A stretch of 43,502 nt of DNA from Symbiobacterium thermophilum. GTDB lineage: Bacteria > Bacillota > Sulfobacillia > UBA995. This document shows, piece after piece, positions 14,414-24,121 of this stretch (its first letter is position 1; each line of letters begins with the position of its first letter). A program made the position numbers and the translations under genes. The stretch spans positions 1-43,502 of the forward strand of contig DYFO01000014.1 of assembly GCA_020725145.1 (NCBI GenBank), given 5' to 3'. A model generated the notes under the pieces. It saw only the letters and a list, made by a program, of their open reading frames with translations. It was not told where the DNA came from and made no database searches.

Positions 14414-15213
14414 TGGGTGAGGTCCTGGTCGACACCCATGCCCACCTGAGCGGTCCCCCCGGGCGGTTCCGCGAGGTGTTGGACCGGGCGGCCGCCGTCG
14501 GAGTGGCGGGCGTGGTTCTTGTAGGGATCGATTTTGCCTCATCGGACGCGGCGGTCGGTTTGGCCGGGACCGACTCCCGGGTCCGGGCGGCCGTTGGGCT
14601 TCATCCGCACTTCGCGGATCGCTGGGACGGGGTCGGCGCGCGGCGGCTGCGCCGGCTGGCCGAGCTGCCCGAAGTGGTGGCGGTGGGAGAGTGCGGTCTT
14701 GACTTCTACCGCAACCTGTCCTCGCGTGAGGCCCAGCGCCGGGCTTTCCTTGAGCAGATCCGGCTTGCCTGCGAAGTGGGCAAACCGTTGGTGGTTCACG
14801 ACCGCGATGCGCACCGCGAGGTCGTCGATCTGCTGGCCGACGCGGGAGCAGAGGCCGTTGGCGGGGTCATGCACTGCTTCTCCGGGGATCTCGGGCATGC
14901 CCGGGCTTGCCTGGAGCTAGGGTTTCACCTGGGGGTGGCAGGCACCGTGACCTACCCGCGGGCCACGAGCCTCCGAGAGGTGGTCGCCCGGGTTCCCGGT
15001 GACCGTCTACTTTTGGAGACGGACTCGCCTTACCTTTCGCCCGAGCCCTACCGCGGCAGACCCAACGAGCCCGCCCGCGTCACCCTGGTGGCCGAGCGGG
15101 TGGCATCGTTGCGCGGAACCGACACCGCCCGCGTCGCCCGCGAGACGACGTCCAACGCCACCCGGCTGTTCGTCGGCCGGGGTGAGGGGTGGTGGGATGG
15201 GCGGCTTCCTTAA
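14410..15213 (+). CDS. tatD: TatD family metal-dependent DNase
   Basis: 267 residues, YabD/TatD family. The metal ligands are visible in VDTHAHL, VGECGLDFYR, VVHDRDAH, MHCFSG and LETDSPYLSPEPYRG. Members are 3'-5' exonucleases on DNA and can remove damaged ends. ATG 14410 overlaps the metG stop by four bases. The metG-tatD pair is conserved in Bacillota. The downstream GGDEF gene starts close to, or overlaps, the tatD end. Confidence 0.95.
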   Translation: MMGEVLVDTHAHLSGPPGRFREVLDRAAAVGVAGVVLVGIDFASSDAAVGLAGTDSRVRAAVGLHPHFADRWDGVGARRLRRLAELPEVVAVGECGLDFYRNLSSREAQRRAFLEQIRLACEVGKPLVVHDRDAHREVVDLLADAGAEAVGGVMHCFSGDLGHARACLELGFHLGVAGTVTYPRATSLREVVARVPGDRLLLETDSPYLSPEPYRGRPNEPARVTLVAERVASLRGTDTARVARETTSNATRLFVGRGEGWWDGRLP

Positions 15214-15223
15214 AGGAGTGAAC

Positions 15224-16297
15224 TTGGCACCGCAATCGGGGGAGATGAGCATCTACGCTGCGCTGGCGCTGGTACGCGCGGGACTGGTCCTCGCCGGTCT
15301 GGCGCTGTGGGCGATGCTGCGGCCGGATCTGCCTGCAGGACTGGCACCGCTGCTGGCGGTCGGCGGCATCTACGCCGTTACGCTGCTGCTGTTCCGGCTC
15401 TTTGCCGGCTACCCGGTCCCCTGGGCGTTGACGGTGATCGTCGATCTGGCCATCACCTGCGCCATGGTCTGGGTCCTGGGCGGTATCGTTTCCGACAGCT
15501 ACGCCCTGTTCTACCTCGTGATCGCAGGCACCGCACTGCTCCGAGGGGGCGGGGCCACGCTCGCGGTGACCGGCTTTACCCTGCTGGCCTACACGGCGAC
15601 GGTTCTTCTCCGAAGCCCCCACGACCCATGGACGCTGGCCTTGCGCCTGTTCGTCCTGGCCATCTTCGGACTGCTGGCCGCGTTCCTGGCCGCGGTGACG
15701 CGGCGCTACCAGGCGGAAACCCTACACAAGGAGGCTATGCTGAGGGACCTGCGTGAGGCGCACGAGCGGCTCGAGCGGTATGCGGCGGAGATGGCCCGCC
15801 AGGCCATCACCGACGGCCTGACCGGTCTGTACAACCACGCCTACTTGCACCGCCGGTTAGACGAGGAGGTGCGTCGGGCAGAACGCTATGGTCTTTCGCT
15901 GTCGCTGATCATGCTCGACCTTGACGGTTTTAAGGAATACAACGATACTTTCGGCCACCTGCAGGGAAACCTGGTGCTCCGCCAAGTGGCCTCCATTCTT
16001 ATCAGCACCGTGCGATCGGTGGACATCGTGGCCCGCTACGGGGGAGAGGAGTTCGCCATCATCCTCCCCGGCACCGGGCATGACGCGGCGCTGGCGGTGG
16101 CCGAGCGCATCCGCCAGCGGGTACAGGACGCGCGTTTCCACGCCCAGCACGGGCGGGAGCTCACGGTGAGTGCAGGGGTGGCCGAGTACCCCCGCGGGGC
16201 GCTCACCAAGCAGGAGTTGCTTGAACTGGCCGACCAGGGCCTTTACCGATCAAAGCGGCTGGGCAAGAACCGTGTCGCCTCCGGCACGGTGCCGTGA
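15224..16297 (+). CDS. Membrane diguanylate cyclase (GGDEF)
   Basis: About 357 residues. Five to six hydrophobic helices fill the first ~155 residues, a short coiled-coil follows (REAHERLERYAAEMARQ), and the C terminus is a GGDEF domain with active-site GGEEF at about 273. The inhibitory I-site RSVD lies exactly five residues before it, so product inhibition is likely. It synthesises cyclic di-GMP. TTG 15224 has AAGGAG 5 bases upstream; ATG 15197 (overlapping tatD) and ATG 15245 are alternatives. In B. subtilis yabE and rnmV occupy this position between tatD and rsmA; here they are replaced by this gene. The sensed signal is unknown because the membrane region is not recognised. Confidence 0.9.
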   Translation: MAPQSGEMSIYAALALVRAGLVLAGLALWAMLRPDLPAGLAPLLAVGGIYAVTLLLFRLFAGYPVPWALTVIVDLAITCAMVWVLGGIVSDSYALFYLVIAGTALLRGGGATLAVTGFTLLAYTATVLLRSPHDPWTLALRLFVLAIFGLLAAFLAAVTRRYQAETLHKEAMLRDLREAHERLERYAAEMARQAITDGLTGLYNHAYLHRRLDEEVRRAERYGLSLSLIMLDLDGFKEYNDTFGHLQGNLVLRQVASILISTVRSVDIVARYGGEEFAIILPGTGHDAALAVAERIRQRVQDARFHAQHGRELTVSAGVAEYPRGALTKQELLELADQGLYRSKRLGKNRVASGTVP

Positions 16298-16307
16298 GGT
16301 GACCGCG

Positions 16308-17216
16308 GTGAGGGGCGAAAGGCACCTGGCCGCGGTGGGAACCGTCCGGAACCTGCTGACCCGGTTCGGGCTGGCTCCGCTGGGCCGCCTGGGACAGCAC
16401 TTTCTCGTCGACCGCAACGTGCTCGCCCGTATCGTCGAGACGGTTGCCCCCGGGCCGGAGGACCTCATCCTCGAGATCGGCGCAGGGCTGGGTACCGTCA
16501 CGCGGGAACTGGCCCCGCTGGTGCGCAAGGTAATCGCCGTGGAGGTTGACCGGGGGCTTTTGCGGATCTTGACCGAAACGCTGGCCGATCTGTCCAACGT
16601 GCAGGTGGTGGCCGGCGACGCCCTGCGTCTGGAGCTAAAGATGTTGCTGTCCGAACAAAGACCCCGAATCGCCAAGGCCGTCAGCAACGTGCCGTACTAC
16701 ATCACCACCCCGCTCATCTTTCGGCTACTGGATGCCTGGCCTTTCGAGCGGGTGGTGGTTATGGTTCAGGAAGAGGTGGCCCAACGCCTCGTTGCCTGCC
16801 CCGCGACGGCGCAGTACGGGGCGTTAACCGTCGCGGTGGCAGCGCGGTACGAGGTCGATCTGGTTGCGAGGGTCAGTCGCAACTGCTTTTACCCGGCTCC
16901 CGGCGTGGATTCCAGCCTTGTCTTGCTGTGCCGCCGCCCCGCGGCCGGGGAACCGGTCGGACGCGCCGCGCTGGCCGCCGTAGTGAAGGCCGCCTTCGGC
17001 CAACGCCGCAAGACCCTGCTATCCGCACTGGCAGGCAGCAGGTTGCCCGGCCTGGACCGGGCAACCGCAAGGAGGCTGCTGGAACACGCGGGCATCGACG
17101 CCCGTCGCCGTGGTGAGACACTCGAGCTGACGGAATTTGAGGCATTGGCCCGCGTGGCAGAACAGCTGCTGGGACCGGACTGGCCCGACTCCGTCACCCC
17201 CGCAGGATTTGAATGA
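16308..17216 (+). CDS. rsmA: 16S rRNA dimethyladenosine transferase
   Basis: RsmA/KsgA of 302 residues, which dimethylates A1518 and A1519 of 16S rRNA using SAM. Motifs are GLAPLGRLGQHFLVD, the SAM-binding EIGAGLGTVTREL and the catalytic SNVPYYITTP. GTG 16308 is chosen because GAGGTGA lies 5 bases upstream; GTG 16299 is the other possibility. It follows the GGDEF gene after about 10 bases. Its end overlaps the -35 of the next promoter. Confidence 0.95.
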   Translation: MRGERHLAAVGTVRNLLTRFGLAPLGRLGQHFLVDRNVLARIVETVAPGPEDLILEIGAGLGTVTRELAPLVRKVIAVEVDRGLLRILTETLADLSNVQVVAGDALRLELKMLLSEQRPRIAKAVSNVPYYITTPLIFRLLDAWPFERVVVMVQEEVAQRLVACPATAQYGALTVAVAARYEVDLVARVSRNCFYPAPGVDSSLVLLCRRPAAGEPVGRAALAAVVKAAFGQRRKTLLSALAGSRLPGLDRATARRLLEHAGIDARRRGETLELTEFEALARVAEQLLGPDWPDSVTPAGFE

Positions 17217-17281: not shown

Positions 17282-17749
17282 ATGGCATTCGTCAGTCCAA
17301 GCAAGGGACCCCTGACCTTCGACCGCATGTTCGAGGACATCCTGGCCTACATCCGGGAAAGTCCCGAGGCACGGTATCGCCTCATCGTCGGCACCGATTC
17401 TCAGATCCGCGATGATCTGCACTTCGTGACGGCGGTGATCATCCACCGCCTGGGCAAGGGAGCTCGCTACTACTACGAACGCCGCCGCCATCCGCCGATG
17501 TCGGCGCTTCGACAGCGGATTTACCACGAGACGGCGTTGAGCCTCCAGGTAGGCGGTCAGCTGGCGCAACGCCTGGCCGAGGGACACATCGACGTCGAGG
17601 TGGAGGTGCATCTGGACGTCGGTCAAAACGGCGCCACCCGCGAGCTCATCCGCGAGATCGTGGGGTGGGTGGCGGGAAGCGGGTTCGGAGCCAAGATCAA
17701 GCCCGAGGCCTTTGGGGCCGCCAAGGTGGCCGACAAGCACACCAGGTAA
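17282..17749 (+). CDS. DUF458 (YkuK-like, RNase H fold) protein
   Basis: 155 residues. It shows the DUF458 pattern: FDRMFEDILAYIRESPEARY, LIVGTDSQIRDDLHFVTAVI, the YYYERRR segment and the C-terminal GFGAKIKPEAFGAAKVADKHT. The family is predicted to have an RNase H-like fold; the Asp in GTDSQ and the final Asp before KHT are candidate metal ligands. Function is not established. GGGGAGGAG lies upstream of the ATG, and a strong promoter precedes the gene, so it opens a new transcription unit that may also include the peptidase gene. Confidence 0.85.
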   Translation: MAFVSPSKGPLTFDRMFEDILAYIRESPEARYRLIVGTDSQIRDDLHFVTAVIIHRLGKGARYYYERRRHPPMSALRQRIYHETALSLQVGGQLAQRLAEGHIDVEVEVHLDVGQNGATRELIREIVGWVAGSGFGAKIKPEAFGAAKVADKHTR

Positions 17750-17806
17750 AAGCCCCGCTCACACCCCTCGCTGTGTTCGCATACCCTGGCGGGGGAGGAA
17801 GAGCGG

Positions 17807-18766
17807 GTGGTCCGGTGGGGAAGGTGGGAGACGGCGTGCGCGCGAGGCCTGTGGCGGCTGCCCAACGTGGTGGGCTTCGGGCGGGGCAATCGCCTTGTGG
17901 GCGGCCGTGAAACCGGTGAGCCTTGCATCACCGTCCTGGTAACCCGGAAGCTGCCGCTTTCGGTGCTTTCCCGCAGTGAGCGAATACCCCCGCGACTTGA
18001 TGGCCGCCTCACCGACGTCATCGCCGTCGGCTTTCCCCGGCTTCTTGGGGTGAACCGCAGGTCACGGGTGCGTCCCGTCCGTCCCGGAGTCAGCATCGGG
18101 CACTACCGCATCACCGCGGGTACCCTGGGAGCCGTGGTGTATGCGACGAACAACGGCGAGCCGCTCATCCTCTCCAACAACCACGTGCTCGCCGACGTGG
18201 CCGAGGTGTCGGGTCGGGGAGGATCGGTCGGTGACCCCATCCTGCAGCCCGGCCCCTACGACGGCGGTGGCCTCGAGGATACCGTGGCCCGGCTGCTGCG
18301 GTTTGTGCCGATGCGGCTGACCTCCCCCGGAAGGACCACGAGACGCTGGTCCGTCGACCCACGGTCGCCCCGTAATCTCGCCGATGCGGCCGTGGCCCGC
18401 CCGTTGACTCCTGGCATGATCGATCCCACGGTGCTCGGTCTGGGCAGGATCACCGGTGTCAGGCGGGCGCGGCCCGGCCTGGAGGTTCGGATGAGCGGCC
18501 GCACCAGCGGGTTGGCCTACGGCTCCATCCGGGCGGTGGAGGTGACCGTCAGCGTGGGGGTCGGTCAGCGGGGCACCGGACTCTTCGTCAGGCAACTGCT
18601 CACCACTCCACTGGCGCGGCCGGGCGACAGCGGGTCGGTGTTGCTGGATCTGCAGAACCGAGCGGTCGGTCTGATCTTCGCCGGTTCGGCTGCCGCGTCG
18701 GTTGCCAGTCCCATAGGCCTCGTCGGCCGCCTGCTCGACATCGCCGTGCTCCCGCCGCTCGCATAG
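17807..18766 (+). CDS. Trypsin-fold serine peptidase-like protein
   Basis: 319 residues. An N-terminal segment of the form NVVGFGRGNRLVGGRETGEP...VTRKLPLSVLSRSERIPP...TDVIAVG precedes a chymotrypsin-like domain. A catalytic triad can be proposed: His126 (SNNHVLAD), Asp193 (NLADAAVARPL) and Ser275 (PGDSGSVLL). The N-terminal segment is typical of a bacterial/plant NAL1-like peptidase group. No signal peptide is evident, so it is probably cytosolic. GTG 17807 has GGAGGAA upstream. The substrate is unknown. It lies directly before the cyanophycin genes; a functional link is only inferred. Confidence 0.8.
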   Translation: MVRWGRWETACARGLWRLPNVVGFGRGNRLVGGRETGEPCITVLVTRKLPLSVLSRSERIPPRLDGRLTDVIAVGFPRLLGVNRRSRVRPVRPGVSIGHYRITAGTLGAVVYATNNGEPLILSNNHVLADVAEVSGRGGSVGDPILQPGPYDGGGLEDTVARLLRFVPMRLTSPGRTTRRWSVDPRSPRNLADAAVARPLTPGMIDPTVLGLGRITGVRRARPGLEVRMSGRTSGLAYGSIRAVEVTVSVGVGQRGTGLFVRQLLTTPLARPGDSGSVLLDLQNRAVGLIFAGSAAASVASPIGLVGRLLDIAVLPPLA

Positions 18767-18827
18767 GGTGGGTTGGCGTCGGTCAGACTTAGTTTGACGC
18801 GTCGCCACACTGACGCCCTTTCAGGCC

Positions 18828-19652
18828 ATGGGCCCCAGGGTTGAGGGCAAACTCTTGATCATAGGCGGGGCGGAGGACCGTTCCGGAAAACGCGTGATCC
18901 TGCGCCGCTTTGTGGAACTGGCCGGGGGGGTCCACGCCCGCCTGGTGGTGGTGGCCGCTGCGTCCCATCACCCCGCCGATGCCGGCGAAGCTTACCGTCG
19001 GCTCTTTTCCGATCTCGGAGTCAGAAAGGTGACGGTCATGGCGATCGCCGATCGGGACGGGGCGGCCGAGGTCTCCCGGGCCGAGGCGGTGGAACGGGCC
19101 TCCGGCATCTTCTTCACCGGCGGCGACCAACTTCGCCTGACCAGCCTGCTGGGGGGAACGCGTCTGCACGCCGCGCTGCGAGATGCCCACTTGCGAGGGG
19201 CGGTGGTGGCCGGCACCAGCGCGGGCGCTGCGGCCATGTCGGATACCATGATCGTGGAGGGTGACAGCGAGGACGCCCCCAAGAAATGTACGGTGAAGAT
19301 GGCTCCCGGTATGGGCTTTCTGAGGGGAGCGGTCATCGACCAGCATTTCGCGCAGCGCGGGCGCATCGGGCGCCTGCTCTCGGCTATCGCCCAGAACCCT
19401 GCGATCTTGGGGATCGGGATCGACGAAGACACGGCGGTGGAAGTCGGTCCTGCCCGGCCGCTGCTGGTGGTGGGGTCACGCACGGTGACCGTGATTGACG
19501 GCCGTTCCATCACCCACACTAACACTTCCCAGTCGGCCCCGGAGGAGGCCCTTGCCATCACCCAGGTGACCTTGCACGTGCTGCCGTCCGGGTACGGTTA
19601 CGACCTGACGACCCGACAGGTTACCCTTCCTCCCGCCGCGGGCAGCACATGA
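18828..19652 (+). CDS. cphB: Cyanophycinase
   Basis: 274 residues, the normal length for this S51-family peptidase. The nucleophile is Ser131 in AGTSAGAAAMSD. GKLLIIGGAEDR, FFTGGDQLRLTSLLGGTRL, DQHFAQRGRIGRL and GIGIDEDTAVEV are family motifs. It cleaves cyanophycin (poly-aspartate with arginine side chains) to beta-Asp-Arg dipeptides. ATG 18828 is used; the ribosome site is weak. It overlaps the open frame of cphA, so degradation and synthesis genes are co-transcribed. The 60 bases before it hold only a partial dyad (GGCGTC...GACGCC). Confidence 0.93.
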   Translation: MGPRVEGKLLIIGGAEDRSGKRVILRRFVELAGGVHARLVVVAAASHHPADAGEAYRRLFSDLGVRKVTVMAIADRDGAAEVSRAEAVERASGIFFTGGDQLRLTSLLGGTRLHAALRDAHLRGAVVAGTSAGAAAMSDTMIVEGDSEDAPKKCTVKMAPGMGFLRGAVIDQHFAQRGRIGRLLSAIAQNPAILGIGIDEDTAVEVGPARPLLVVGSRTVTVIDGRSITHTNTSQSAPEEALAITQVTLHVLPSGYGYDLTTRQVTLPPAAGST

Positions 19653-19666
19653 AGGAGGTTGGCCTC

Positions 19667-22306
19667 TTGCGCATTGAGGAGCTGAGAACCTTCGAGGGCA
19701 CCAACCTGCACGGCCGCTTTCCGGCGGTCTTGATGCGCCTCAACCTCGGGGCCCACGACGGTTGGAAGACCTCGGAAGACCCCGATTTCGTTCGGAGGCT
19801 GTTGACCTGCCTGCCCGGGCTGGTCGAGCACCATTGCTCGGTCGGACACCACGGGGGCTTCCTGACCCGTCTTCACGAGGGAACCTATCTCGGCCACGTG
19901 GTGGAGCACGTCGCCCTTGAGCTGCAGAAGCTGGCGGGAGTGGATGTGGTCTACGGCAAGACCCGTCGTGCCGACCGGCCTGGGGTGTACACCCTGGTCT
20001 TCGAGTGCCAGGGAACGCGCACCGGTGCCCTGGCCGGCCGCCTGGCGGTGGAGCTGATCGACGATCTTCTGCGGGGGGCGTCCTGCGATCTCGAGTCCCG
20101 ACTACGCGAACTGCGGGCCTGCGCCGACTCGGAACGGTTGGGCCCCACCACCGCGGCCATCGCCGCCGCCGCTCGCCAGCGCGGAATACCGGTGATGCGG
20201 CTGGACGGTGACAGCCTGCTGCAACTGGGCCACGGGGCGCGCCAGCGGCGGGTGCGGGCGAGCATGACCGAACTGGCCTCGTGCCTTGCGGTCGATCTCG
20301 CCGGCGACAAGTTCCTGAGCAAGGCTTTTCTCGCCGACGCGGGCATCCCCGTTCCTCCGGGTGAGGTCGCCCAAAGTGAGGAGGAGGCGGTGTCCGTCGC
20401 CCGTGATCTGGGGGATGCGGTGGTGGTCAAGCCCTTGGACGGAAATCAGGGCAAGGGAGTCAGCCTGAACCTCCGCGAGGCAGAGGAGATCCGCCTGGCC
20501 TATCGGCTGGCGGCGAATTACGGCCGTACGGTGCTGGTAGAGAAGTATGTGCCCGGCCGGCACTACCGCCTGCTGGTGGTCGGCGACCGCATGGTGGCCG
20601 CCTCCGAGCGCTTTCCCGCCCGGGTCCGGGGAGACGGCGTTCATACCGTGCGTGAGCTGATCGAGCGCCTGAACCGTGATCCCCTGCGCGGCGACGGCCA
20701 CGAAAAGCCGCTGACGCGCGTGCGGGTGGACCCGGTGATGCTCCTTTGCCTGGCGCGCAACGGGCTCGTGCTCGACAGCGTGCCCGAAGCCGGACGCTGG
20801 GTGAACCTGCGGGACAACGCCAATCTGAGCACGGGGGGCACGGCCGCCGATGTGACCGAGCAGGTTCACCCGGCCAACGCGCGGCTGGCGGTGGAGGCCG
20901 CACGCGTCGTCGGTCTGGACGTGGCCGGGGTGGACCTTGTTGCCCCCGACATCGGCGAACCGCTGGAGCCCGGCCGGGGGGCGGTCATCGAGGTGAACGC
21001 CTCACCCGGCCTGCGGATGCACCTTTTCCCTAGCTCGGGCCGACCCCGCGATGTGGCGGGGGCCATCGTGGACTGGCTGTTTCCACCGGGTACCCCCTCG
21101 CGCATTCCCATCGTCTCGGTCACCGGCACCAACGGCAAGACCACGGTGTGCCGTCTGGTGGCGCACCTGCTGCGACGGGCAGGGTTCAGCGTCGGGCTAT
21201 CTTGTACCGACGGCATCCTGATCAACGGTGAGCTTCTGGCGAAGGTCGACGCCAGCGGGCCCCGCAGTGCGCGAGCCCTGCTCACCGACCGCCGGGTGGA
21301 GGCCGCCGTGCTTGAGACCGCCCGCGGCGGCATCATTCGCGGAGGACTGGGCTACGACGAGAGCGACGTGGGAGTGGTAACCAACGTCAGTCATGACCAC
21401 GAGGGTCAGGACGGCATAGCGTCGCTGGAGGAGATCGCTTACGTCAAGGCCCTCGTGGTGGAAAGCGTGCGTCGGGACGGCCACTCCGTGCTCAACGCCG
21501 ACGATCCCTTCGTGCTGGAAATGGCCCACCGTGCCCGCGGGCGGGTCATCCTGTTCAGCGCGCAGGAAGAGAATCTTGTGCTTCGCAGGCACGTCGCGGC
21601 CGGCGGCAGGGCGGCGGGGATCAAAGGCGGGCGGCTGGTGCTGTGGGACGGGCGGCAGGACATCGACCTCGTGGCCCCGACCCAACTTCCCTTCGCCTAT
21701 TACGGCAAGTCGCAGGCGAACGTGAGCAACGCCCTGGCCGCCGCGGCGGCCGCCTGGGCGCTCGGCCTCTCCACGGACCTCATCGCCCGAGGCTTGCGGG
21801 AGTTCATCCCCGGGCCGGGCGACAACCCCGGGCGTTTCAACCTCTACCATATCGGCGGGGTAAGGGTGATGATCGACTACGGGCACAACCGCGCCGCCTG
21901 GCGGGCGGCCATTGAGCTCGGGCGCCTGCTCAATCCACGCCGTCTGTGGGGGGTGATCGGCGCTCCCGGCGACCGTCTCGACCAGAATTACGTGGAACTG
22001 GGGCACGTGGCCGGGCTGGGCTTCGACCGCCTCGTCATCAAGGAGGACCTCGACCGCCGCGGTCGCGCCCCCGGCGAGGTGGCCGGTCTCCTGTTGCGCG
22101 GGGTGCTCGAGACGGGGTTCTCGGACCGTGACGTCGAGGTGGTCCTCGACGAGGCGGCCGCCCTGGTAACCGCACTGGAGCAGGCCATGGACGGTGACCT
22201 GATCCTCGTGTTCTACGAACGGCACGACCGCGTGCTCGGCGTGCTCGAGGAAGCATTCACGCGGCCGGTGGGCCGCAAGCTGGAAACGGCCACGCTTCAC
22301 GGTTGA
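19667..22306 (+). CDS. cphA: Cyanophycin synthetase
   Basis: 879 residues. An N-terminal domain is followed by an ATP-grasp domain (about 200-450; VVVKPLDGNQGKGVSLNL, IEVNASPGLRMH) and a Mur-ligase-like domain with P-loop GTNGKTT near 487 and NVSHDHEG. ATP-grasp adds aspartate to the backbone and the Mur-like domain adds arginine, giving a nitrogen-reserve polymer. TTG 19667 is preferred because AAGGAGG ends 8 bases upstream and the protein then begins RIEELRTFEGTN as homologues do; ATG 19649 overlaps the cphB stop but has no spacing for a ribosome site. B. subtilis has no cphA at this locus, where yabG, veg and sspF lie. Confidence 0.95.
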   Translation: MRIEELRTFEGTNLHGRFPAVLMRLNLGAHDGWKTSEDPDFVRRLLTCLPGLVEHHCSVGHHGGFLTRLHEGTYLGHVVEHVALELQKLAGVDVVYGKTRRADRPGVYTLVFECQGTRTGALAGRLAVELIDDLLRGASCDLESRLRELRACADSERLGPTTAAIAAAARQRGIPVMRLDGDSLLQLGHGARQRRVRASMTELASCLAVDLAGDKFLSKAFLADAGIPVPPGEVAQSEEEAVSVARDLGDAVVVKPLDGNQGKGVSLNLREAEEIRLAYRLAANYGRTVLVEKYVPGRHYRLLVVGDRMVAASERFPARVRGDGVHTVRELIERLNRDPLRGDGHEKPLTRVRVDPVMLLCLARNGLVLDSVPEAGRWVNLRDNANLSTGGTAADVTEQVHPANARLAVEAARVVGLDVAGVDLVAPDIGEPLEPGRGAVIEVNASPGLRMHLFPSSGRPRDVAGAIVDWLFPPGTPSRIPIVSVTGTNGKTTVCRLVAHLLRRAGFSVGLSCTDGILINGELLAKVDASGPRSARALLTDRRVEAAVLETARGGIIRGGLGYDESDVGVVTNVSHDHEGQDGIASLEEIAYVKALVVESVRRDGHSVLNADDPFVLEMAHRARGRVILFSAQEENLVLRRHVAAGGRAAGIKGGRLVLWDGRQDIDLVAPTQLPFAYYGKSQANVSNALAAAAAAWALGLSTDLIARGLREFIPGPGDNPGRFNLYHIGGVRVMIDYGHNRAAWRAAIELGRLLNPRRLWGVIGAPGDRLDQNYVELGHVAGLGFDRLVIKEDLDRRGRAPGEVAGLLLRGVLETGFSDRDVEVVLDEAAALVTALEQAMDGDLILVFYERHDRVLGVLEEAFTRPVGRKLETATLHG

Positions 22307-22377
22307 GGACAGGAGCGAAGGATGGCCCGCTCCTCACCGCGAAGAACCCTGTGCGGCGAGGGGAGTTGCCGATCGGC

Positions 22378-23289
22378 ATGCCCAGGAAGCTGGCGATCGC
22401 CGTCCGGGCTCGTGCCAAGCTGAACCTCACACTGGACGTGCGTGGCATCCGGCCCGACGGCTACCACGAGCTGGAATCGGTGTTTGTCACGCTGGAGTTG
22501 GCAGATCGCCTGGTGCTGCGGGGACGGAACCGGGCGGGGAGGGCTCTTTGGGTCACGCGGGGGGAGCCTCTGGAAGCGGGGAGCACCAGCAGCTGTCTTG
22601 AGGCGGCGCGCCGGCTGGCGTCCGGCCGCGGCGATGTGCCCGGCGTCACCATCCTCCTCCGAAAGCGCATACCGGTGGCGTCGGGTCTGGGCGGTGGTAG
22701 TGCCGACGCCGCGGCCGTTCTGCGGGGCCTGAACCACCAATGGGGGCTGGGGCTGACCCGACGTCGGCTGGCCCGGCTTGCCGCCGACCTGGGATCGGAC
22801 GTACCCTTTTGCCTGAGCGGAGGGCTTGCACTGGTGCGGGGACGCGGCGAACGGCTGCGCCCTCTTCCCCCTCCTCCCCGGCCGTTGTGGCTGGTGCTGC
22901 TGCGTCCTCCCGGGGCCAAGTCCACCGCACAGGTCTACCGGAACTTCGATCTTCTGCCTTCGGAAGCGCTGACCGGTCACCGCCCGGACAACCGGGCGGC
23001 CATGCGGGCCTTGGCCGACGGCGACTGGTCCACCCTGGCCGGCGCCCTGGGGAACGTGCTGGAGCCGGCGCTGTCCCTTCTGGTGCCCGAGGTCTGCCGG
23101 GCGCGGCGGTTGCTCGCGGAGGCCGGGGCCCTCGGCACCGCCATGACCGGCAGCGGTCCGACGATGTTCGGCTTGGCCGCCGATGCGGCGCACGCCCGGG
23201 CGGTGGCGTGTCGCGTGAGGGCCGCCCTGGGGGATGACCGTCGATGGTGGCTGAGCGTCACACGCCTTGACCCCGAGAGCAGGAGTTAG
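22378..23289 (+). CDS. ispE: 4-diphosphocytidyl-2-C-methyl-D-erythritol kinase
   Basis: 303-residue GHMP kinase of the MEP isoprenoid pathway. The substrate motif is ARAKLNLTLDVRGIRPDGYHE, the ATP loop RIPVASGLGGGSADAAAVLR, and the C-terminal GTAMTGSGPTMFGL. It phosphorylates the 2-hydroxyl of CDP-ME in the cytosol. ATG 22378 matches the family N terminus; GGGGAG is about 12 bases upstream, and the open frame extends to TTG 22303 overlapping cphA. It stands in the ispE-purR order seen in Bacillus. Confidence 0.94.
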   Translation: MPRKLAIAVRARAKLNLTLDVRGIRPDGYHELESVFVTLELADRLVLRGRNRAGRALWVTRGEPLEAGSTSSCLEAARRLASGRGDVPGVTILLRKRIPVASGLGGGSADAAAVLRGLNHQWGLGLTRRRLARLAADLGSDVPFCLSGGLALVRGRGERLRPLPPPPRPLWLVLLRPPGAKSTAQVYRNFDLLPSEALTGHRPDNRAAMRALADGDWSTLAGALGNVLEPALSLLVPEVCRARRLLAEAGALGTAMTGSGPTMFGLAADAAHARAVACRVRAALGDDRRWWLSVTRLDPESRS

Positions 23290-23347
23290 GCTCCCCGGTA
23301 AGGAATACCCGGGGCCGAAGAGGGACCGCAGGAAGCGGTGGTCGATC

Positions 23348-24121
23348 ATGGTTGACGCCCTGGTGCTGGCCGGGCGCCCCAACCGGGGCAAGTTGAGTAC
23401 CATGAGTCCGGAGCCGAACGAAGCGATGATCCCCATCGGCGGCAGGGCCATGATCTCGTACGTCGTCGAGGCCCTGGTCGGTTCGAGGGGGATAGACCGC
23501 ACGGTGGTATTGGGCCCCGAATCGCTCCTCGCGCCCGCCCTGGGAGGGCTGGCCCGTCGGGTCGGCTTCGTTGAACCGGTGGGCGATCTCGTCGAGAACT
23601 TGCTGGCCGGGCTACAGGCCCTAGACGGCGCGGCTATGGTGCTGGTGTCGAGCTCCGACGTCCCGTTGCTTACTCCGGCCGTGGTTGATGGCTTCCTGGA
23701 GGAGTGCGCACGCAGGCAGGCCGACCTGCACTACCCCATCCTTTCGCGCGAGCTGGCGGAGCGGTGCTTCCCGGGCATGCGCCGCACCTATGCCGCGCTC
23801 CGCGACGGCACCTTCACCGGCGGAAATCTGGTGCTCCTGAACCCCGAGACCGTCCGCGCGCGGGCGGCCGAGGCCAGGGCTTTCTTCGCGGCACGCAAGA
23901 ACCCGCTGCGCCTGGCCGCCGTACTGGGACCTACCTTCGTGGTGCGCCTGCTGCTGCGAAGGCTGACGGTGGACGAACTGGAGAGCTTTGCGTGCCGGGT
24001 GTTCGGATTGCGAGGGGCACACGCCGTTCGGACCGCCTATCCCGAGATAGGGGTGGACGTCGACAAGCCGGCAGATTACCAGCTGGTCAGCGGACTGCTG
24101 GCGGCGAGGACCGCCGGCTGA
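23348..24121 (+). CDS. Nucleotidyltransferase family protein (NTP-transferase fold)
   Basis: 257 residues with a MobA/GlmU-type GT-A fold: N-terminal VDALVLAGRPNRGKL, EAMIPIGGRAMISYVVEAL, VSSSDVPLLTPAVVD (the SD-x-P metal motif) and GVDVDKPADYQLV near the C terminus. Such proteins transfer a nucleotide onto a sugar phosphate or cofactor, but I cannot name the substrate. The G-rich loop is atypical (LAGRPNRGK rather than LAAGxGxRM). ATG 23348 is chosen by homology; the upstream open frame overlaps ispE. It lies between ispE and purR, an arrangement I recall from other clostridial-type genomes. Confidence 0.8.
   Translation: MVDALVLAGRPNRGKLSTMSPEPNEAMIPIGGRAMISYVVEALVGSRGIDRTVVLGPESLLAPALGGLARRVGFVEPVGDLVENLLAGLQALDGAAMVLVSSSDVPLLTPAVVDGFLEECARRQADLHYPILSRELAERCFPGMRRTYAALRDGTFTGGNLVLLNPETVRARAAEARAFFAARKNPLRLAAVLGPTFVVRLLLRRLTVDELESFACRVFGLRGAHAVRTAYPEIGVDVDKPADYQLVSGLLAARTAG

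Follow-up and report, generated by a model that had tools for sequence, protein, structure and literature searches.

Why does a serine peptidase gene stand directly before a pair of genes for cyanophycin, between rsmA and ispE, in the genome of a spore former? The question is raised by contig DYFO01000014.1 of Symbiobacterium thermophilum (assembly GCA_020725145.1), which was analysed over its whole length of 43,502 nucleotides and is called the window here. It is numbered C50 among the 77 contigs of a draft genome (G000) of 2.07 Mb. A sequence-only reading had described cphB and cphA between rsmA and ispE, preceded by the peptidase gene, and we found exactly this arrangement. It had also proposed that the group takes the place of yabG-veg-sspF, that cyanophycin might be a spore or stationary-phase nitrogen reserve, and that the peptidase may act in the same process. 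In B. subtilis, YabG is a spore-coat-processing protease (peptidase U57), which is also present in Clostridia. It seems likely to us that two sporulation modules lie side by side in the interval, one being a peptidase of the mother cell and the other a system for cyanophycin made in the forespore.

The peptidase had no NCBIfam match, and its match to the NAL1_N domain (PF25608) was below the threshold (21.2 bits, cut-off 27, E 2.5e-4). It did not match YabG (PF05582 / TIGR02855) at E 0.001 in Pfam and NCBIfam scans. With a profile of 30 homologs, rice NARROW LEAF 1 (NAL1) came first among the solved structures (hmmsearch, E 3e-12). The AlphaFold model of the peptidase (predicted local distance difference test score 84, predicted template modelling score 0.86) aligned with the whole chain of NAL1 over 287 residues (Z 23.8, root-mean-square deviation 3.7; VIA-align), whereas the best bacterial secreted serine protease was aligned over 174 residues (Z 18.3, deviation 2.1), and the first 34 rows of a Foldseek search with the model were all NAL1. 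H126, D193 and S275 were invariant in all 30 aligned sequences; D193 we take to be the aspartate of the triad, by analogy with trypsin-fold proteases. By its His/Asp/Ser triad and by its profile and fold, the protein is assigned to the NAL1-like serine peptidases of clan PA. No N-terminal signal was apparent by eye, so the peptidase is probably cytosolic.

The identity of the cyanophycin genes is clear. CphB scored 319 bits with TIGR02069 (cut-off 127), and its best solved relative was the cyanophycinase 7uqv (E 1e-85), aligned over nearly the full length including the GTSAGA motif. Similarly, CphA scored 1125 bits with TIGR02068 (cut-off 850), carries the N-terminal, ATP-grasp and Mur-ligase domains, and was closest to the cyanophycin synthase 7lg5 (E 6e-225), again over nearly its full length.

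Are the peptidase and the cyanophycin genes tied to each other, or to the place? Among 151 genomes of the window's class, G000 counted in, the peptidase was found in 48; one marginal match (G050, E 9e-4) was removed and the other 47 were used. CphA was above the cut-off in 82 genomes and CphB in 88. In 40 of the 47 genomes the peptidase was no more than 10 kb from ispE, and so was cphA in 76 of its 82; it is clear that the gene arrangement at the locus is not due to chance. However, 19 of the 40 genomes with an ispE-linked peptidase had no cphA, and conversely 52 of the 76 with an ispE-linked cphA had no peptidase. Both were present within 10 kb of each other, with cphA linked to ispE, in 20 genomes, and over the whole class the peptidase and cphA showed no association (p = 0.72; like all presence/absence p values given here, this one ignores kinship among the genomes). 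Since each is often linked to ispE without the other, each is a resident of the rsmA–ispE interval in its own right. In four genomes (G001, G058, G035 and G068) the locus was split over contigs. We also noticed that two family f2 genomes have a gene resembling acyl-CoA synthetases (named by eye) inserted between the peptidase and cphB (L100, 7238-8926; L101, 6365-8056).

YabG was absent from all 151 class genomes and Veg (PF06257) from G000, while the B. subtilis control was positive in both searches. As far as yabG and veg go, the proposed replacement of yabG-veg-sspF thus fits the window's genome; many relatives retain veg, as described below.

We compared these distributions with markers of sporulation. 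In the class, spoIVA was present in 137 genomes and missing from 14, of which three (G018, G081 and G084) carried spoIIIAE and were moved to the sporulators, leaving 140 sporulators and 11 genomes without either gene. G000 has both genes and was therefore treated as a spore former. The peptidase was found in 47 of the 140 sporulators and in none of the 11 others (p = 0.018 after the reassignment), and cphA in 85 and in one, respectively (p = 0.001, four copies below the cut-off being counted). Within families f6 and f7, 14 of 15 genomes with spoIVA had the peptidase, in comparison with 0 of 7 without it (p = 5e-5), and here the peptidase showed no association with cphA (p = 1); as these genomes are related, the count reflects few independent losses, perhaps two or three. 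One genome without spoIVA and spoIIIAE (G047, locus L231) has kept cphBA on a contig without ispE; it has no peptidase and no forespore-type promoter, the best match to the sigma-F pattern upstream of its cphB having three mismatches.

In a sample of 338 genomes of the phylum, the peptidase was found in 133, yabG in 175 and spoIVA in 285. All 133 peptidase genomes carried spoIVA (131) or yabG (the remaining two), and none of the 48 genomes without both had the peptidase (p = 5e-12). YabG was also present in 102 of the 133. In 30 of the 90 genomes for which both places were listed, the peptidase lay within 10 kb of yabG on the same contig, compared with about 1% expected from uniform placement. 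The peptidase tracks sporulation, and among the sampled genomes of the phylum it is restricted to sporulators.

The neighbourhoods of named relatives point the same way. We took the best 80 of at least 568 confirmed relatives of the peptidase (loci L119-L198), a set that is skewed to close relatives because it holds the best matches only. The loci were annotated by BLAST with the window proteins and with proteins from the named loci themselves, start codons were picked by a ribosome-site rule, and the annotation was checked with Pfam on ten proteins from four loci. In 46 of the 80 loci one or more of the following genes lay no farther than 6.5 kb from the peptidase: yabG (30 loci), sipL (25), a SpoIID-domain gene (11), sleB (9) and ypeB (8). 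Within the same distance were rsmA in 43 loci, veg in 35 and cphA or cphB in 15, and in many relatives veg still separates ykuK from the peptidase. The Fervidicola locus reads rsmA, ykuK, a gene on the reverse strand, yabG, a SpoIID-amidase gene, veg, the peptidase, a CAP-domain protein gene, a small open reading frame, SipL-LysM, cphB, cphA and ispE. A second sporulation setting was seen in Moorella mulderi, where the peptidase adjoins ypeB and sleB, and was common to six more named loci. Of the 80 loci, 23 have a gene for a CAP-domain protein no more than 6.5 kb from the peptidase (e.g. L122, 8156-8806; L160, 8163-8909).

Promoter-like sites gave a further indication of when, and in which cell, the two modules may be expressed. 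Five sigma consensuses of B. subtilis were scored upstream of the genes against first-order (Markov) shuffles. In this first pass sigma-K stood out before the peptidase (z 16.1) and before yabG (z 14.5), and sigma-A before veg (z 30.2); upstream of rsmA, ykuK and ispE the highest value was z 3.6, for sigma-A before ykuK. Upstream of the peptidase, the fainter signals of sigma-A (z 4.7), sigma-F (z 3.5) and sigma-E (z 2.5) were lost at fixed thresholds, with one, two and no matches, respectively, in 78 named regions. A sigma-A-type promoter was seen before veg of the named loci, amid the sporulation cluster, in 19 of 29 cases (shuffles 0.1).

With the sigma-K-type pattern AC / CATANNNTA and a fixed threshold of one mismatch, the 100 bp upstream of the peptidase contained a site in 34 of 77 non-redundant named regions (shuffles 1.5, maximum 5) and in 12 of 29 class regions (shuffles 0.2), a set that includes the window itself and overlaps the named set in some genomes. 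The same distance upstream held a site for yabG in 21 of 24 cases and for SipL in 10 of 23, compared with ykuK 1/40, rsmA 0/29, ispE 0/17 and veg 0/27. In held-out peptidase regions (60 further regions less 13 that were already in the named set), sites were present in 16 of 47 within 150 bp (shuffles 1.5, maximum 4), and a control stretch farther upstream had them in 2 of 44. The -10 element of the window's own site begins 27 bp 5' of the GTG, with a chance of 0.004 in the shuffled 100-bp upstream sequence; elsewhere in the window the same one-mismatch pattern occurs at two overlapping positions of the + strand near 2459 and at three on the - strand. Judged by these promoter sequences, the peptidase would belong to the sigma-K regulon.

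For cphB, a sigma-F/G-type pattern (GYATA / GGNNANAHTR) was sharpened on 44 upstream regions, which included duplicates from one genome. The pattern and a threshold of two mismatches were fixed before 52 further regions were fetched, all from the same class and one (G116) from a genome that had contributed to the 44; the count at one mismatch was added. Among the 45 non-redundant held-out regions, sigma-F-like sites were found in 35 at two mismatches (shuffles 2.2) and in 25 at one (shuffles 0.1). Two control stretches gave 4/47 and 3/41 at two mismatches, and 1/47 and 0/41 at one. No sigma-K-like site was detected before cphB in the 45 held-out regions. In the window the sigma-F-like site overlaps the stop codon of the peptidase, with a chance of 0.001 in the shuffled 110-bp upstream sequence, and it is the sole one-mismatch match on either strand of the 43.5 kb. 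Its presence makes cphBA a candidate member of the sigma-F/G regulon. The coordinates of the sites and genes are given in Table 1.

Table 1. Genes and predicted promoters from rsmA to ispE, in positions of the window
Feature	Position	Strand	Remarks
rsmA (ksgA)	16350..17216	+	Left edge of the locus; PF00398, E 9e-53 on 16386-17213; start codon uncertain
ykuK-like RNase H-like protein gene	17282..17749	+	PF04308, E 9e-55; equal position in relatives
Predicted sigma-K-like promoter of the peptidase	17760..17788	+	CACA-N16-CATACCCTG, one mismatch
NAL1-like trypsin-fold serine peptidase	17807..18766	+	GTG start, 319 aa
Predicted sigma-F-like promoter of cphB	18761..18790	+	GCATA-N15-GGTCAGACTT, one mismatch
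cphB, cyanophycinase, peptidase family S51	18828..19652	+	TIGR02069; GTSAGA motif
cphA, cyanophycin synthetase	19649..22306	+	TIGR02068; 4-bp overlap with cphB
ispE	22303..23289	+	Right edge of the locus; longest open reading frame; TIGR00154, 190 bits (cut-off 139)

With ykuK lying between rsmA and the peptidase, the interval holds four genes; gaps of 57 bp and 61 bp separate the peptidase from ykuK and cphB, respectively. As ispE matches its family only from about residue 30 onwards, the gene may in fact start farther downstream. From left to right the window reads metG, tatD, a GGDEF gene, rsmA, ykuK, the peptidase, cphB, cphA and ispE, and then a gene for a MobA-like nucleotidyltransferase, purR, spoVG, glmU and prs (metG, tatD, purR, spoVG, glmU and prs being named by eye from the translations). 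The GGDEF gene encodes a diguanylate cyclase (15107-16297), and similar genes were seen near tatD in G084 and G044 (L101, L115). The MobA-like gene (23345-24121; PF12804, 44 bits, cut-off 27) has no NCBIfam equivalog, and a homolog was found at the locus in 17 of 20 class regions fetched.

Several observations weigh against two modules of sporulation. No marker gene was found near the peptidase in 16 of the 80 named loci, some of which are short contigs. In G044 and G057 the peptidase is separated from an intact cphB-cphA-ispE run, which lies on another contig, and in G044 it adjoins pilus-type genes (named by eye); in G024, of the same family, the peptidase is probably on a separate contig too, and cphB runs to the contig end. 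Homologs were found under the record labels Woesearchaeota, Euryarchaeota, Desulfovibrio and Deltaproteobacteria (L191, L184, L192 and L193), and the family at large is thus not specific to spores; we note that these labels may reflect binning error or transfer. Within the class 92 of the 137 genomes with spoIVA have no peptidase, and it is therefore not essential to sporulation. The class-wide p value of the peptidase rests on the three spoIVA-negative genomes reassigned for spoIIIAE, as with spoIVA alone the association was not significant (p = 0.23), and the disregard of kinship bears on all of these values. As for the promoters, the sigma patterns used are consensuses of B. subtilis. Among held-out copies at one mismatch, 31 of 47 peptidase regions and 20 of 45 cphB regions had no site, and matches within 150 bp were also seen before housekeeping genes (sigma-K-like: ispE 1/19, metG 1/10, tatD 1/14; sigma-F-like: rsmA 3/30). 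The sigma-G form was found before cphB in 5 of 45 regions (shuffles 0.4), and the sigma-F and sigma-G patterns overlap. Finally, transcription from the peptidase promoter could read through the short gap into cphBA in the window.

The same short gap, which would permit co-transcription, and the 20 class genomes in which the peptidase lies close to an ispE-linked cphA speak for the idea of the sequence-only reading that the peptidase takes part in cyanophycin turnover with CphA and CphB, for instance through the release or breakdown of granule proteins or of proteins bound to the polymer. We reject such a joint process, and consider it very improbable, on the grounds of distribution and promoters: almost half of the ispE-linked peptidases are found without cphA and more than half of the ispE-linked cphA genes without the peptidase, there is no association over the class, and the promoter sequences of the peptidase and cphB are of different sigma types, which argues against shared transcription. 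That reading had itself named missing conservation with cphA and missing shared transcription as grounds for giving up the idea, and this is largely what the distribution and the promoter sequences indicate. It fared better with cyanophycin as a spore reserve, which is supported by the linkage of cphA to ispE, by its bias towards sporulators and by the sigma-F-type promoter sequence of cphB.

A more plausible but still unlikely alternative is that, in a class that lost YabG, the peptidase simply took over its function. The absence of YabG from all class genomes, the shared locus and a sigma-K-like promoter of the same type as that of yabG would agree with this; however, YabG is also present in most of the peptidase genomes of the phylum, and 93 of the 140 class sporulators have neither protein. 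The coexistence of the two suggests a partner or a different task, and we do not favour replacement as the whole story. It might also be argued that there is synteny and nothing else, i.e. that housekeeping genes of a conserved neighbourhood were lost by general genome reduction. The locus indeed includes the housekeeping genes rsmA, ispE and glmU, and all but one of the 11 genomes that lack both spoIVA and spoIIIAE are small (1.4-2.3 Mb), but the peptidase has its second sporulation context with sleB and ypeB in Moorella and others, the sigma-K- and sigma-F-like promoters are mostly absent from the housekeeping neighbours, and G047 has kept cphBA but not the peptidase. We therefore find this explanation improbable, too.

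Two adjacent sporulation modules thus remain our preferred explanation. Gene identities, the fold and triad of the peptidase, synteny, the distribution over sporulators and the promoter-like sequences are computed results; sigma dependence in vivo, compartments, substrates and storage in the spore core are inferred. The peptidase would be a cytosolic NAL1-type serine endopeptidase of the late, sigma-K-dependent programme of the mother cell, most likely processing coat or cortex-associated proteins in spore maturation. Late expression in the mother cell and a cytosolic serine-peptidase fold would fit a maturation protease of coat or cortex, as YabG is. It would work beside YabG where YabG exists and without it in the window's class. 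By neighbourhood, SipL, coat proteins and YabG itself are candidate substrates in the genomes that have them. The cphB-cphA pair would be expressed in the forespore under sigma-F, possibly sigma-G, so that CphA would deposit the Asp-Arg polymer inside the developing spore; CphB would be packaged in the spore and release the polymer at germination. Expression of cphBA in the forespore predicts that the polymer is in the spore core and that CphB is carried over to germination. Extended to a large group of Bacillota, this would mean a forespore-made, sigma-F/G-type nitrogen and arginine store opened by a co-packaged cyanophycinase, plus a hitherto unrecognised family of NAL1-type maturation proteases, controlled by sigma-K and working with or without YabG, a generalization on which we are evenly divided.

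A forespore-type promoter before cphB gives a testable prediction of which cell makes the polymer, and when, and bears on why many spore formers retain cyanophycin genes. The peptidase is a new candidate for the short list of spore-maturing proteases, and its closest solved structure is a plant protease. In the open-access papers searched we found no description of a forespore promoter or forespore control of cphBA, nor of a peptidase of the window's type as a sporulation protein; the one paper listed there with both 'cyanophycin' and 'forespore' deals with dipicolinic acid. The cyanophycin-spore link itself is already known. In C. perfringens, a cphA mutant reportedly makes fewer and smaller spores, and cyanophycinase is said to be present in germinated spores. 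Passages in two papers (PMC5532821, PMC13241827) cite earlier work in this species (Liu 2016) as tying cyanophycin to spore assembly, and one passage in the latter places cphB of C. ljungdahlii among upregulated sporulation-related genes. Spore proteins listed in an excerpt on Moorella thermoacetica (PMC8745062) include YabG, YpeB, SleB and two HtrA-type S1 peptidases, and the main text on a sporulation gene set (PMC3533761) has no occurrence of 'trypsin', 'serine protease' or 'cyanophycin'.

Compared with known systems, the peptidase resembles YabG in sharing its chromosomal neighbourhood in many genomes and in its sigma-K-like promoter, but it is of a different family, and 102 of the 133 peptidase genomes encode both. 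It resembles rice NAL1 (PDB 7y77, 8pmi) in the whole-chain fold and in the aligned His and GDSGS motifs, with a sub-threshold match to NAL1_N in the N-terminal region, whereas it is bacterial and shorter, has about 22% identity and lies in a sporulation locus; the plant substrates of NAL1 have no relevance to it. CphB and CphA of the window match known cyanophycin enzymes over their full length, both above curated cut-offs and among solved structures, but differ in lying in the veg-ispE sporulation locus and in having a promoter sequence of the forespore type. A further parallel is cphA of C. perfringens, where cyanophycin is linked to spores as well, and the proposed expression of cphBA in the forespore agrees with the link reported there.

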